Positions 58,353-64,000 of a DNA stretch of 64,000 bases are shown one piece after another. Position 1 is the first letter of the stretch; each line of letters begins with the position of its first letter. The position numbers and the translations under genes are program-made. Below the pieces are notes generated by a model. That model ran no database searches and was not told where the DNA came from. It saw nothing but the letters and a program-made list of their open reading frames with translations. Source of the stretch: Haloarcula sp. DT43 (GTDB lineage: Archaea > Halobacteriota > Halobacteria > Halobacteriales > Haloarculaceae); NCBI RefSeq assembly GCF_037078405.1, contig NZ_JAYMGZ010000003.1, positions 558,001-622,000 of the forward strand, given 5' to 3'.

Positions 58353-58606
58353 ACCCGCAATTTGTGTCGCAAGGTGGTAAATTCCGGTGACGATCTCTGA
58401 GGACTTCGGTTTTCGCTGCGCTGGATCAATGGCTTTGCACATCTCCAAGGAGAGCGACCGTATTTAGGAGACTCCACGACTGTATCCACACACGTTCAGC
58501 GATGGGTTGGGTCGATGTTGACACCAGAATAAACCGGACTGTGCTGTTGATTCATTCGCTATATCTCGCAACCGCTTGTGATAGCTTCTGGAAACATTAA
58601 ACTGGA

Positions 58607-58640
58607 TGTGCAAGATACAAAACGCGTATCGGTCAGCACA
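58607..58640. repeat. Dispersed semi-palindrome, copy 4 (most symmetric)
   Basis: tgtgc-aa-gatac-aaaacgc-gtatc-ggtca-gcaca: both the outer arms (tgtgc/gcaca) and the inner arms (gatac/gtatc) are perfect. It lies 27 bases past the 3' end of the second small membrane protein gene. Confidence 0.65.
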
Positions 58641-58667
58641 AGTCAGCGGCGTATCGCTCGATAGTGC

Positions 58668-58904
58668 CTATTCGCCGCTACCACTGAGGGCAGTCATCGG
58701 AGTGGCGCCGGCAACGATAGCACCTGTTGCGAGCAGCGCTGCCGACAACACAACGAAATCCCCACTCGGTGAGTAGCCGGCCAGCCCAGCACCAACTTGC
58801 ACGATAAACACCGTCACAAAGAAACTGAGGATGGCAAAGGCCAGCATGACGAACGCCGCGATGATACCACTAGCTAATGTTCCGAACGAATCAAGAAGTC
58901 CCAT
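58668..58904 (-). CDS. Small membrane protein (paralogue B)
   Basis: The 78-aa product starts MGLLDSFGTLASGIIAAFVM and shares SFFVTVFIVQVGAGLAGYSP, the following SG and ATGAIVAGATPM with the protein at 47231. The nucleotide sequence is also close, so the two arose by a recent duplication that included the downstream repeat. Function unknown. Confidence 0.65.
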   Translation of the reverse strand: MGLLDSFGTLASGIIAAFVMLAFAILSFFVTVFIVQVGAGLAGYSPSGDFVVLSAALLATGAIVAGATPMTALSGSGE

Positions 58905-59112
58905 TTGGTAAGTAACCTCGATTTAAAAGGAGAGTACACTGCATAAATCACTTGGGTTCTGTCTACGTCTAATTATGACGTTGTTTGATTACTACGCGGC
59001 CTCGTTAGCAGATGATTCTCCCATATTCCATGAAAAAAGAAGCCGTCCTGCTGAATAGAAGCGCCATGTTTCGCACACTGGTTCTGACAGCTTCCAAGAA
59101 TATCGAAGCGTG

Positions 59113-59145
59113 TGTGCAAGATACAAAGCGCGAGTCGCTCAACAC
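59113..59145. repeat. Dispersed semi-palindrome, copy 5
   Basis: tgtgcaagatacaaagcgcgagtcgctcaacac matches copy 4 in its first 15 bases and in the outer arms. It lies at the left edge of the truncated chemotaxis transducer, near the point where homology to the transducer starts. Confidence 0.55.
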
Positions 59146-59174
59146 GAGATTGGATCTTTAGCCTCTTCTTCGTA

Positions 59175-59366
59175 GGTGATTCGACGGGTTCGATCTCCAT
59201 CACCACCGGCCAGCGCAGCGGAATCGACGAGCAATCGACTGCCATGGAAGAGGTCGCGGCCAATGCCCAGCAACTCTCGGCAATGAGTGATCAACTGTAC
59301 GACCGAGTTGACGTGTTCAAACTCGCGGCAAACGAGAACGCTACCCTGTCGGAGTCAACAGAATGA
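59175..59366 (+). pseudogene. 3' remnant of a methyl-accepting chemotaxis transducer
   Basis: Reading toward the stop at 59366 gives ITTGQRSGIDEQSTAMEEVA, then QQLSAMSDQLYDRVDVFKLA, the last signalling helix and tail of Htr transducers. All membrane, HAMP and most signalling parts are gone. The stop overlaps the cheW-like start in ATGA. The break is close to repeat copy 5. Confidence 0.65.
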
Positions 59367-59701
59367 GTACCACAGGCACGTCTCGGAACGCGACGCCAGA
59401 CGAACAGGTGCTGACGTTCACCCTCGGGGATGAACGCTACTGTCTCGGGATCGAATACGTGGTAGAACTCGCCGATAGCGAGGAAATGACGTCACTGCCG
59501 AACACAGAAGAGTTCGTTGAAGACATCATGGAACTACGGGGCCGTACCACGACTATCATCAACCCAACCAAGATTTTAGAAACCGATCGGAAAGACCTGT
59601 TCACCGACGGTGGGAACAGTGAGCATCGAATTGTCGTGTTGGACGGTGAGGGAATCGATACCGTATCCTCAGTTGGGTGGGTGGTCTCTGAAGTTTTTTG
59701 A
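59363..59701 (+). CDS. cheW: CheW-like chemotaxis adaptor with shortened C-terminus
   Basis: The 112-aa product starts with a DEQVLTFTLGDERYCLGIEY strand set and has DIMELRGRTTTIINP, both typical of CheW, which links transducers to CheA. CheW is usually about 140-170 aa. Here the frame ends at VVSEVF* on a run of six T bases; dropping one T would add only VFESITPATAN before another stop, so the end is truncated or frameshifted. It is coupled to the transducer remnant. Confidence 0.65.
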   Translation: MSTTGTSRNATPDEQVLTFTLGDERYCLGIEYVVELADSEEMTSLPNTEEFVEDIMELRGRTTTIINPTKILETDRKDLFTDGGNSEHRIVVLDGEGIDTVSSVGWVVSEVF

Positions 59702-59817: not shown

Positions 59818-61302
59818 ATGTCGATTAATGACACCCCAATTTCGCAGATAAGCACCGGAGTCGGGGGTCTCGACGAACTATTACGAGGGGGGTTTATCCA
59901 GAATCGGATGTATCTGGTCACCGGAGAGCCAGGGACTGCAAAAACGACGCTCGGAATGCACTTTCTCTACGAAGGACTTGCCAACGACGAAACAGTCCTC
60001 TATATCCACGGGGAAGAGTCCGCCGAGGAACTCAAAACCAATGCCGCCCAGTTCGGTCTCGATATTAGCGCTGTAGAGTTTCTTGATCTCGGCCCCGATT
60101 CGGACTTTTTCACCGAGGATTCGTCATTCGATCTCGTCGATTCCAGTGATATCGATCAAGAATGCTACACCGAGGTGATTCACGAGGCAATCGAAGAAAT
60201 TGACCCGGAACGGGTGGTCATCGACCCAATCACCCAGCTGCGCTACCTCGAAACTTCCGACTATCATTACCGCAAACGGATCCTCTCGTTCATCCGGTTC
60301 CTCAAAAAACGAGGCGTCACAATTCTCGCCACGGCCACTCTAAACACAAATGAAAAAGCTTCCGTAGATATCCGCTCACTGAGTGATGGCGTCGTTACAC
60401 TGTCTCGTGTCGCCGATGGGCGGCGCATTGAAGTCAGGAAAAACCGGGGTGTCGGCCAAATCGAAGGCGACCACGGGGCCGAAATCCGCTCCAGTGGACT
60501 CGAAGTATATCCCCGCATTCGTCCGGAACCGTCTGACCGTGAATTCGATCCGACCCCGGTCGGATCCGGTATCCCCGAGCTCGATAAGATGGTTGGGGGA
60601 GGGTTCGAACGTGGGACGGTGACCTTCATCACCGGTCCAACTGGCGTCGGGAAAACCACGCTCGCAACACTGTACCTCGCCCAAGCGGCACGACAGATGG
60701 GTAAGTCGGTGATTTATCTCTTCGAGGAACGGATCGAAACGTTCGAACACCGATGCCGATCTCTCGGGATCCCGATTGACGAATTGCGGGAAGAGGGACT
60801 CCTCTCAATCCACGTAATCGAACCGGGGACACTCTCCGCCGAAGAGTTCGCCCACAAGGTGCGACAAGAGGTTGAGGAGGAAAGTGCAGAGACGGTTATG
60901 ATCGATGGCGTGGGCGGCTACACCTCGGTGATCAAGGGCAACGAAGACGGTCTTGACCGAGATCTCCAGTCCCTGACTCGCTATCTTATCAATAGGGAAG
61001 TAACCGTCTTCGTTACCGACACAACGCACCAGGTAACAGGCCTCTCATCTGCCACAAGCCACAAGATAAGTCAAATTTCAGACAATATCATATTCATCAG
61101 TTACGTGGAAATTCAGAGTTCGCTTCGAAAGGTTATCGGCGTACTCAAAAAACGAGCTGGTGGGTTCGAATCCAGTTTTCGTGAATTCGAAATCACCACA
61201 AACGGTGTCCAAATTGGTGAACCCTTAAGGGAATACAGCGGAATCCTTCACGGCTCACCACGGGCCGGCGAACCACCACAACGGGATCCCAAGTCAGAAT
61301 AA
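59818..61302 (+). CDS. Two-domain KaiC-like ATPase
   Basis: The start at 59818 (MSINDTPISQISTGVG) gives 494 aa; the frame upstream to 59698 is not coding. Two RecA-like domains are seen: Walker A GEPGTAKTT at 36-44 with catalytic GEES, and Walker A GPTGVGKTT at 273-281 with LFEER. Both Glu pairs of KaiC-type ATPases are kept. No KaiA or KaiB is nearby. KaiC-like proteins of archaea often work with sensor kinases. The stop overlaps the next start by one base, so it is coupled to the LOV-kinase. Confidence 0.85.
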   Translation: MSINDTPISQISTGVGGLDELLRGGFIQNRMYLVTGEPGTAKTTLGMHFLYEGLANDETVLYIHGEESAEELKTNAAQFGLDISAVEFLDLGPDSDFFTEDSSFDLVDSSDIDQECYTEVIHEAIEEIDPERVVIDPITQLRYLETSDYHYRKRILSFIRFLKKRGVTILATATLNTNEKASVDIRSLSDGVVTLSRVADGRRIEVRKNRGVGQIEGDHGAEIRSSGLEVYPRIRPEPSDREFDPTPVGSGIPELDKMVGGGFERGTVTFITGPTGVGKTTLATLYLAQAARQMGKSVIYLFEERIETFEHRCRSLGIPIDELREEGLLSIHVIEPGTLSAEEFAHKVRQEVEEESAETVMIDGVGGYTSVIKGNEDGLDRDLQSLTRYLINREVTVFVTDTTHQVTGLSSATSHKISQISDNIIFISYVEIQSSLRKVIGVLKKRAGGFESSFREFEITTNGVQIGEPLREYSGILHGSPRAGEPPQRDPKSE

Positions 61303-64000
61303 TGACCCACCCGGGGACACCCCCCAGCGGACCGAGCGAAACTTCCGAGACGGTCCAATTACTCGTCGCCGATGCTGGAAATCGGTCTGCAATCAGTAGA
61401 ATGCTCGACGACCGGTTCGAAGTGGAGACGAGCCAGACCGTGACGGACGCCGATATATATCTCATCGAAGATCACCTTTTCCCCGAGTATCGAGCGACAT
61501 TACGCGAGCGGGTCGAGCAAGAGGACCCGGCGTTCTGTCCAGTCGTCCTGATTCAACGCGAGAGTACGGATCTGAAGCAAGGAAACAGGGGTCCGTCTGC
61601 CCCTGAGAGGACTATTCTCTATGACGAGGTGGTGGATGCACCGATCGACCCACCCCAGTTGATTCGGCGACTGAACTCGTTACTTGTCCGCCGTCGACAG
61701 TCTCAGGAGTTGATGCAGCAGGTCTCGACATTGGAAGAACGTGAGCAACGACTCCGCCGCTTCGAGCAGGGCGTCGAATCGACCGGAAATGGCATCGTCA
61801 TGACCAACGCTGCTGGCAAAATTGAGTACGTAAACCCGGCTCTCGAATCGATTGCCGGGTATACTGAAGATGAAGTCCTCGGGGAGTCCCCACAGATACT
61901 CTTTCCCGATGGGGCTGGAGATATCTTCGACGATGAGTTCTGGCAGACGTTGGAAGACCAGACGGAATGGGAGGAGGATATCATTATCGAACGCAAAAGT
62001 TCTCACAGGCGAGTCGTTAATGCAACGACTACCGTTCTCCGCAATGCAGAGCGGGAAACTGAAGGATTCGTCATCGTACTCAGTGACATCACAGAGCGGA
62101 TCCAGCGAGAACAAGACTTGGAAGACAGAGAAGCAGAACTCGATCTGCTTCGACAAATCTTGACGCGGTATCTCCGCCACAATATGCGAAATGATCTCAA
62201 TGTCATCCAAGGCAGAGCAGAGTTGCTGAAAGAAGACGAGACGTTGTCACCAGAGCAGATCGAGTGGGCAGAGACGATCAGCGAGAACGCCGAAGATCTC
62301 ATCGAGATGAGCAATACCGCTCGGACCTACAGTTCACTACTCGAAAGAGATGCCGAGTTGTCTACGTTTGATCTCTCGAACATCACGACAAAGGCGGTTC
62401 AACGAGTCCGACAAGACCATTCTGACGCGACGTTCGAACTGGATGTTCCCGAAACGTGTGAAATACGTGCCCGAGACGGGATTCAACGTGCGCTTGAGGA
62501 ACTGATCGACAATGCTGCACGACATAATGATACGACGGAACCGTGGGTGCGTATTCAGGTCCAAGATCGTGTCGGTGCACGATTGGTAATCGAGGATAAC
62601 GGGCCGGGAATCACCGATCGGGAAATAGAGTCTTTCGAAAGGAGGGTCGAAACACCGCTCACACACAGTCAGGGTGTCGGCTTATGGCTCAGTAAATGGC
62701 TGATCGAGGGAGTCGAGGGAGAGTTATCCATCGAGACAACGGACACAGGGACACGCGTTACAGTTGATTTCCCATCCCTTGCCACAATCAGTTCGACTGG
62801 GCAAGAAATCACCACGCTGAAAGAGCGTGAACAGCGGTTACAGACGATCAAAGATCGGATGACAGATGCGATAATCGAAGTCGATGCCGATTTCAACGTC
62901 ACGCAACTCGACGAACGAGCCGAACGCATTTTCGGCAAAGAGGCGGATACCGTATTGGATCAACGTTTGTGGGATGTGTTTCCGACGCTTACAGACGCGC
63001 AATTCGAACCGGTCATCCGAAACGCCATGGAATCGCGCTCATCAACTAGTGTCGAAGGATATTTGGAAGAGATAGACACCGGTCTGGAATTTGCGATATA
63101 TCCTGATTTTGACGGAGGGCTTACGTTTTACACCCAGGACGTAACGGAGCGCAAGGAACAACAGAAAATACTTACACGCAATACCCGCTCGATGGACGAA
63201 GCACCCATCGGTATCACGATTACCGATCCGAGTCAAGAGGACAATCCCATCATCTACGTGAATGACCGATTCCAGGAGCTGACTGGCTACTCGGAAGCGG
63301 AGGTTCTTGGCCGGAACTGCCGCTTTCTCCAGGGCGAAGCCACCGACCCCGAACCGGTTGCAAGGATGCGAGAGGCAGTTAACAACGAAGACCCCGTCTC
63401 CGTTGAACTCCGGAACTACCGGAAAGACGGTACAGAGTTCTGGAATCAGGTGTCGATAGCACCCGTCCGTGACGATGATGGGTCGGTCGTCAATTACGTT
63501 GGTTTCCAGCATGATATATCCGACCAACGACGCCGCGAGCGAGTCCTCCGGGAGATGTATGATATCATCTCGGACCGGCACGGATCGTTCGAGGACAAAG
63601 TACAGTCATTACTGGAACTCGGTCGGAGTGAACTCAACACGGAGTACGGGACGCTGTCGGAGATCCGCGGTGAGGAGTACGTGTTTGAGTTCGTTGCGAC
63701 GGACGATGATAGCATTCAGTCGGGAGACGTAGTGCCGGTCTCGGCCACGAACTGCGAACTCGTCGCCAGTTCCGAGGAAACAGTCGTGGCCGGCGATGTC
63801 GAACGTGATGCCCCTGAGCAGACTGACCGGGCAGGCTTCACCGAGTGGGGAATCTCGTGTTATCTTGGGGCGCCGGTGTTTACCGGGAACGAGGTCTATG
63901 GGACGTTCTGTTTCTACGGCACGGAGGCCCGGGCCGATCAGTTCTCCGAGTGGGAAGTCACGCTGGTAGATCTCATGAGTCGCTGGGTGAGTTATGAACT
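61302..64000 (+). CDS. PAS/histidine kinase/LOV/GAF sensor protein, incomplete at window end
   Basis: The open frame from ATG 61302 runs 899 codons to the window end without a stop. Order: an N-terminal receiver-like region without a clear phosphoacceptor, a PAS domain (about 165-280; IVMTNAAGKIEYVNPAL), an H-box RYLRHNMRNDL with His293, a HATPase domain (LIDNAARHN with Asn404, IEDNGPGIT near 431, GVGLWLSKWL), a second PAS, a LOV domain with GRNCRFLQG (Cys673) and a GAF domain after about 770. The LOV-GAF order is that of bacterio-opsin activator (Bat) proteins, usually ended by an HTH_10; that would lie outside the window. A flavin blue-light sensor is likely. Confidence 0.8.
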   Translation, partial: MTHPGTPPSGPSETSETVQLLVADAGNRSAISRMLDDRFEVETSQTVTDADIYLIEDHLFPEYRATLRERVEQEDPAFCPVVLIQRESTDLKQGNRGPSAPERTILYDEVVDAPIDPPQLIRRLNSLLVRRRQSQELMQQVSTLEEREQRLRRFEQGVESTGNGIVMTNAAGKIEYVNPALESIAGYTEDEVLGESPQILFPDGAGDIFDDEFWQTLEDQTEWEEDIIIERKSSHRRVVNATTTVLRNAERETEGFVIVLSDITERIQREQDLEDREAELDLLRQILTRYLRHNMRNDLNVIQGRAELLKEDETLSPEQIEWAETISENAEDLIEMSNTARTYSSLLERDAELSTFDLSNITTKAVQRVRQDHSDATFELDVPETCEIRARDGIQRALEELIDNAARHNDTTEPWVRIQVQDRVGARLVIEDNGPGITDREIESFERRVETPLTHSQGVGLWLSKWLIEGVEGELSIETTDTGTRVTVDFPSLATISSTGQEITTLKEREQRLQTIKDRMTDAIIEVDADFNVTQLDERAERIFGKEADTVLDQRLWDVFPTLTDAQFEPVIRNAMESRSSTSVEGYLEEIDTGLEFAIYPDFDGGLTFYTQDVTERKEQQKILTRNTRSMDEAPIGITITDPSQEDNPIIYVNDRFQELTGYSEAEVLGRNCRFLQGEATDPEPVARMREAVNNEDPVSVELRNYRKDGTEFWNQVSIAPVRDDDGSVVNYVGFQHDISDQRRRERVLREMYDIISDRHGSFEDKVQSLLELGRSELNTEYGTLSEIRGEEYVFEFVATDDDSIQSGDVVPVSATNCELVASSEETVVAGDVERDAPEQTDRAGFTEWGISCYLGAPVFTGNEVYGTFCFYGTEARADQFSEWEVTLVDLMSRWVSYE

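Follow-up and report, generated by a model that had tools for sequence, protein, structure and literature searches.

What does a KaiC-like ATPase do when its gene runs, with an overlap of a single base, into the gene of a light sensor with two kinases? The question is raised by a gene pair at the end of a stretch of DNA from Haloarcula sp. DT43, a haloarchaeon with a genome of 3.75 Mb. The whole stretch of 64,000 nucleotides, carried on contig C3, is called the window; all positions are window positions, and features past position 64000 are given as window-equivalent positions. We think it fairly probable that the pair is a more elaborate form of a conserved signalling module made of a KaiC-like ATPase and a receiver-like domain (called PsR below), and that through it blue light would act on a KaiC-PsR switch by which two histidine kinases are controlled. 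The two genes are the following.

59818-61302, plus strand: KaiC-like ATPase, 494 residues, two RecA-type domains
61302-64000 in the window, full end at window-equivalent 64655 (contig C3 622655), plus strand: sensor with two kinases, 1117 residues

They meet at AATAATGACC (TAATG), where the stop codon TAA of the ATPase and the start codon ATG of the sensor share one A at 61302. An earlier note on this DNA had described a two-domain KaiC-like ATPase overlapping a sensor by one base, and both features are seen, in the open reading frames and in the matches to PF06745. The contig extends 1652 bases beyond the window, and the sensor gene, 655 bases of which lie past the window end, terminates within this extension. 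Read to its end, the sensor has the order PsR - PAS - HisKA/HATPase (first kinase core, HK1) - PAS - LOV - GAF - HisKA/HATPase (second core, HK2):

61344-61727, plus strand: PsR, N-terminal pseudo-receiver-like domain, residues 15-142, predicted receiver fold
61740-62120, plus strand: first PAS, residues 147-273
62154-62774, plus strand: HK1, first histidine kinase core, residues 285-491, N and G boxes present
62178-62180, plus strand: H-box His293 of HK1
62817-63161, plus strand: second PAS, residues 506-620
63186-63557, plus strand: LOV, residues 629-752
63318-63320, plus strand: codon of the photoactive Cys673, within GRNCRFLQG
63558-64000, plus strand: GAF, residues 753-905, the last few residues past the window
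window-equivalent 64017-64652, outside the window, plus strand: HK2, second kinase core, residues 906-1117, with His925

The two HisKA and two HATPase_c stretches, with His293 and His925 and with N and G boxes, identify the protein by its sequence as a putative sensor histidine kinase with two cores. The domain search confirmed what the earlier note had read here, namely that the gene of a KaiC-like ATPase is tightly paired with one for PAS, histidine kinase, a genuine LOV-type domain and GAF. The note had gone on to propose a Bat-like output and to suggest looking for an HTH_10 domain past 64000; this part had to be given up, as reading to the gene end gave a second HisKA-HATPase module instead, with no BAT or HTH_10 domain. 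The sensor shares the mid-protein PAS/LOV-GAF order of the bacterio-opsin activator Bat, but has neither of the domains, BAT and HTH_10, with which Bat ends.

The earlier note had not described the front domain of the sensor. Pfam gave no family match for residues 15-142, and we rejected the idea that PsR is a known Pfam domain; 3 of 33 members had weak matches to other families. AlphaFold, run on PsR with 33 homologues, gave a model (confidence score pLDDT 87.7) whose top Foldseek matches are receivers (E 1.5e-4, TM-score 0.55-0.65), so that the domain has a predicted receiver fold. The structures of KaiA and CikA were absent among the 50 fold matches listed, and the likeness of PsR to their pseudo-receivers is one of arrangement only. 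The window PsR has neither the phospho-accepting Asp nor the conserved Lys of receivers: Glu56 occupies the first position, and Ala113 stands before the conserved Pro114. Across 133 partners the Asp is kept in 123 and the Lys in 12; judged by these residues, the prefix "pseudo" would fit most PsR domains, not all. From the model, we take the N terminus of the sensor to be a probable receiver-fold pseudo-receiver that had gone unrecognised. Archaeal REC-HisK proteins, of which up to 40% may be unphosphorylated and none has been characterised experimentally, likewise have an N-terminal receiver, PAS or GAF domains and a C-terminal kinase (PMC5847659). The window sensor differs from them in that its receiver is not recognised by Pfam, its gene adjoins that of a KaiC-like protein, and one protein holds two kinase cores.

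The evidence that PsR belongs with KaiC comes from an order-wide sample of the family, in which we fetched the loci and examined the genes beside the KaiC gene; domain calls in this survey were made with home-made models at stated cut-offs. The KaiC-like family is present in 149 of 243 genomes. Of 122 haloarchaeal loci, 104 encode next to KaiC a PsR of at least 45 bits (the strict definition), 86 of them downstream of it on its own strand and 18 divergently: KaiC gene and PsR-bearing sensor are indeed conserved together, as the reading of the earlier note required. A further 10 loci have a lone stand-alone weak receiver beside KaiC, and the loose cut-off gave 114 of 122, a count which includes stand-alone true receivers and HalX-type receivers in two loci. 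A search of 31 whole genomes with the PsR model gave 32 PsR domains, 28 of them beside a KaiC of this family. PsR and KaiC are found in exactly the same 22 of these genomes, both being absent from the other nine, some of which are incomplete. The trees of KaiC and of PsR correlate (r 0.58, shuffles giving at most 0.10), and in both the neighbours of the window pair are the same genome group, belonging to another family.

What stands behind PsR is, by contrast with this constancy, quite different from one partner to the next. The sensors may be PAS, LOV or GAF; the haloarchaeal outputs are kinases of HK1 or HK2 type or, in 8 loci, BAT-HTH_10 transcription factors; the bacterial outputs are GGDEF-HD or GGDEF-EAL, in loci of Halanaerobium, Methylococcaceae and Halothiobacillus. 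Compared by sequence in this way, the partners suggest that the fixed companion of KaiC is the front receiver-like domain, the sensors and outputs behind it being swapped between species, and that in bacteria the same module may have cyclic-di-GMP outputs. Two groups of partners can be recorded separately: the PsR-GAF-BAT-HTH_10 proteins adjacent to KaiC at L185, L188, L196, L200, L201, L205, L206 and L211, a direct link from KaiC to bacterio-opsin-activator-like proteins, and the bacterial L105, L114 and L120, where a KaiC-adjacent PsR is fused to GGDEF, EAL or HD. HalX-type receiver proteins of 203 and 217 residues (by eye) lie upstream of KaiC in L091 and L182 and are candidate kinase targets.

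Several observations weigh against a dedicated KaiC-PsR module. No receiver of any kind is adjacent to KaiC in 8 of the 122 loci; 4 of the 32 PsR domains stand as orphans, with no KaiC of the family beside them; at the loose cut-off the PsR model also catches two HalX receivers; the stand-alone partners of Haladaptatus-like genomes retain both Asp and Lys and look like ordinary receivers; no dedicated response regulator lies beside the window pair; and KaiC and PsR share a species history, which makes the tree correlation and the co-occurrence partly trivial. As a separate observation, the orphan gene at L238:3769-5565 encodes PsR-LOV-HK1, and no KaiC of this family was found in the fetched locus.

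Could the sensor, then, be an ordinary multi-sensor kinase lying by chance beside a KaiC gene, the two proteins acting independently and their adjacency coming from genome organisation or co-transfer? A haloarchaeon of this genus has 30-60 HATPase proteins, and the pair was seemingly acquired as a block: its guanine-plus-cytosine content is 53-54%, against 66-67% in a paralogous pair of the same genome (contig C2, L010:5916-8809), which consists of a KaiC-like protein of 496 residues, 47% identical, followed by a PsR-PAS-HK1 kinase of 466 residues. However, the adjacency (104 of 122 loci) spans many genera and occurs in divergent orientation too, PsR is nearly confined to the neighbours of KaiC, and the same coupling recurs with quite different outputs. 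Common history alone hardly explains adjacency in both orientations with outputs so dissimilar, and we regard independent action of the two genes as unlikely. The C2 pair is common to congeners and is probably the native copy. The window pair probably arrived whole by horizontal transfer, because of its low content compared with the paralogous pair and because its tree neighbours come from another family.

The conserved module is elaborated in the window by the second kinase. Both halves of the sensor have free-standing homologues: the N-terminal half is nearest to a 534-residue KaiC-partner kinase (PsR-PAS-HK1) of Halobiforma haloterrestris and relatives, while the C-terminal half resembles stand-alone PAS-LOV-HK2 kinases. 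A congener has a 748-residue kinase, not beside KaiC, whose LOV is 70% and whose HK2 is 62% identical to those of the window sensor, and the GAF is 73% identical to that of a kinase of another genus. In Haloarcula halophila separate genes of HK1 and HK2 type stand in a row behind KaiC, and in Halorientalis marina KaiC is followed by two sensor genes. Only the window, of the 122 loci, unites the HK1 and HK2 types in one PsR protein. The simplest reading is a gene fusion particular to this lineage, in which a KaiC-partner kinase would have been joined to a LOV-GAF kinase, and such a fusion suggests cooperation between the two kinases.

The second half also brings the light sensor. The LOV domain has a PAS fold with the NCRFLQ motif and the photoactive cysteine (Cys673). 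Its best matches in the PDB are an engineered LOV-kinase (4gcz, E 4e-44) and the LOV domain of YtvA (2pr5, E 9.8e-37); it also matches LOV domains of aureochrome and phototropin. In the alignment, Cys673, the Arg and Gln of NCRFLQG, the Arg of the following helix, two Asn and a late Gln are identical to YtvA, where, besides the Cys, such Arg, Gln and Asn residues are established contacts of the flavin phosphate and ring. An exact search in DNA for the GRNCRFLQG pattern gave only two places in this genome and 36 in all 31 genomes, against 0 for its reversed control, so that the motif is not a matter of chance; 8 of the 36 sit in KaiC-adjacent kinases. Canonical LOV is rare overall yet enriched among KaiC partners: it occurs in 8 of some 26 of these and in 28 of the roughly 1090 remaining HATPase proteins (Fisher p 5e-7, uncorrected for phylogeny; the denominators are approximate, from about 1114 HATPase domains in the 31 genomes). 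Over the wider sample, LOV is recurrent: a cysteine-bearing LOV is present in the partner at 30 of 122 loci, the variant GEDCRFLQ characterising one large clade which includes Halorubrum. The LOV state switches 11 times along the KaiC tree, and the LOV of the window is isolated among neighbours lacking one and therefore seems to have been gained separately. Taken over the tree, LOV in KaiC-adjacent kinases appears to have been gained several times. The archaeal LOV domain ALovD-1 binds flavin mononucleotide (FMN) and responds to blue light, and archaeal LOV domains are commonly located in REC/PAS/GAF-kinase proteins (PMC12202551). The window LOV shares the GxNCRFLQG motif and the flavin-contact residues with the YtvA type and with ALovD-1; it differs in lying between two kinase cores and beside KaiC, no KaiC link being mentioned for ALovD-1 (PMC12202551). 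Light matters to this organism, since its genome has three rhodopsin genes, and a role of the pair in a light response is plausible.

For the KaiC-PsR module of the window, we propose the following course. The KaiC-like ATPase would assemble as a two-tier ring, to which the N-terminal PsR of the sensor would dock; whether the ring holds ATP or ADP, or how it is phosphorylated, would gate the histidine kinases behind PsR, and the sensor may in turn act on the ATPase. Since PsR-PAS-HK1 appears fused here to PAS-LOV-GAF-HK2, an adduct formed under blue light between FMN and Cys673 would alter the activity of both kinase cores, which would then signal to unlinked response regulators.

The sequence just upstream of the pair raises another alternative. 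The region 59088-59701 is occupied by a probable relic:

59363-59701, plus strand: CheW-like open reading frame, C-terminally truncated, CheW identity only 38%
59214-59366, plus strand: short transducer-like tail that resembles, weakly and by eye (E 0.09), the extreme C terminus of a methyl-accepting transducer

In plasmids of Haloarcula halophila and Halorientalis marina there are intact clusters of the order MCP (methyl-accepting chemotaxis protein)-CheW-(PAS protein)-KaiC-sensor-sensor, and the two window features are probably the broken remnant of such an MCP-CheW cluster; no donor copy of the relic was found elsewhere in this genome. The pair could then be a chemotaxis or phototaxis adaptor, working in a transducer-CheW cluster and tuning motility, all the more as the KaiC-like CirA and CirD influence motility and archaellation in H. 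volcanii (PMC13286277). But MCP or CheW genes stand directly beside the KaiC unit only in the window and in two or three other loci, and the window itself has a truncated CheW and lacks the transducer; we hold this role to be quite improbable. Near the relic, an imperfect direct repeat (71%; 58557-58642 and 59062-59148) surrounds a small membrane-protein reading frame (58668-58922, minus strand).

There remains the ATPase itself, and whether it deserves to be called a clock protein. It has two PF06745 domains (E 7.6e-75), and cyanobacterial KaiC aligns over nearly its whole length (E 9.7e-65), the alignment stopping near residue 482-490 of 494. Each of the two RecA-type domains has Walker A and B motifs and a catalytic Glu pair:

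59923 and 60634, plus strand: P-loops, both present
60007 and 60718, plus strand: catalytic Glu pair motifs, both present
60214 and 60895, plus strand: Walker B Asp motifs, both present
61069-61071, plus strand: Ser418, at the position of KaiC S431 in the alignment to KaiC

Of the two KaiC phosphosites only the first is kept: all 19 aligned relatives have the S431-equivalent Ser, while the T432 position is variable among relatives and is Gln419 here. The protein thus shares with KaiC of the KaiABC clock (PDB 8zn5, 1tf7 and others) the tandem RecA-type domains, P-loops, Glu pairs and S431-position Ser, but differs in the Gln at T432, an apparently shorter C-terminal tail, the lack of KaiB and KaiA, and a PsR sensor as partner gene. 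Its scores fall below the cut-offs of the clock-KaiC families (206 against 546 bits for TIGR02655, 276 against 408 for NF006799), and no match to KaiB (PF07689) was found in this genome, KaiB of the positive control S. elongatus being detected. A likely relative is CirC of Haloferax volcanii, the only double-domain Cir protein, whose gene lies beside a "fixL" sensor gene (PMC3941300). CirC is of about the same size and likewise adjoins a sensor gene, described only as fixL, whereas the window neighbour is a LOV double kinase; going by this published description, not by direct alignment, the two ATPases are probably of the same family. Two-domain KaiC-like proteins are also annotated as gvpD in plasmid records H7, H15, H20 and H23, probably a misnomer.

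A clock or hourglass timer entrained by light, which the earlier note had entertained and in which the ATPase would cycle like cyanobacterial KaiC, with PsR in the place of KaiA or CikA and LOV setting the phase, could draw on the two intact ATP sites and the invariant Ser, on KaiA and CikA having a receiver-like domain too (PMC12632262) and on cirC adjoining "fixL" and cir transcripts tracking light-dark cycles (PMC3941300), but it is very improbable, as KaiB is not found here and KaiA is not known in archaea (PMC3941300), the second phosphosite is replaced, the scores are far below the KaiC cut-offs, the tail appears shorter than that of KaiC, and cir expression driven by light does not amount to a free-running rhythm. 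On its sequence, a clock function of the ATPase is not supported, and the name of clock protein should be avoided for it.

The KaiC-PsR module may reach beyond this locus. We put forward tentatively, at a little less than an even chance, that KaiC and PsR make up a hub of two parts, ancient and not named before, in haloarchaea and some bacteria, where PsR would dock KaiC, any sensor or output could be plugged in behind, and light input would have been acquired repeatedly, one switch driving two kinases in the window. Our comparison with the literature, outside which Makarova, Galperin and Koonin 2017 stood, found no work joining a KaiC homologue, a pseudo-receiver and a histidine kinase. Those authors reportedly proposed KaiC-like ATPases as archaeal signalling hubs linking many input and output domains, which is the same general idea.

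To our knowledge, the many KaiC-like ATPases of archaea have hardly any known partners. The receiver-like domain that lies so regularly beside the KaiC gene is a concrete candidate binding partner, and the LOV-bearing members would offer blue light as a direct handle for switching such systems in the laboratory. The exchangeable outputs suggest that one mechanism may stand behind kinases, transcription factors and cyclic-di-GMP enzymes alike.

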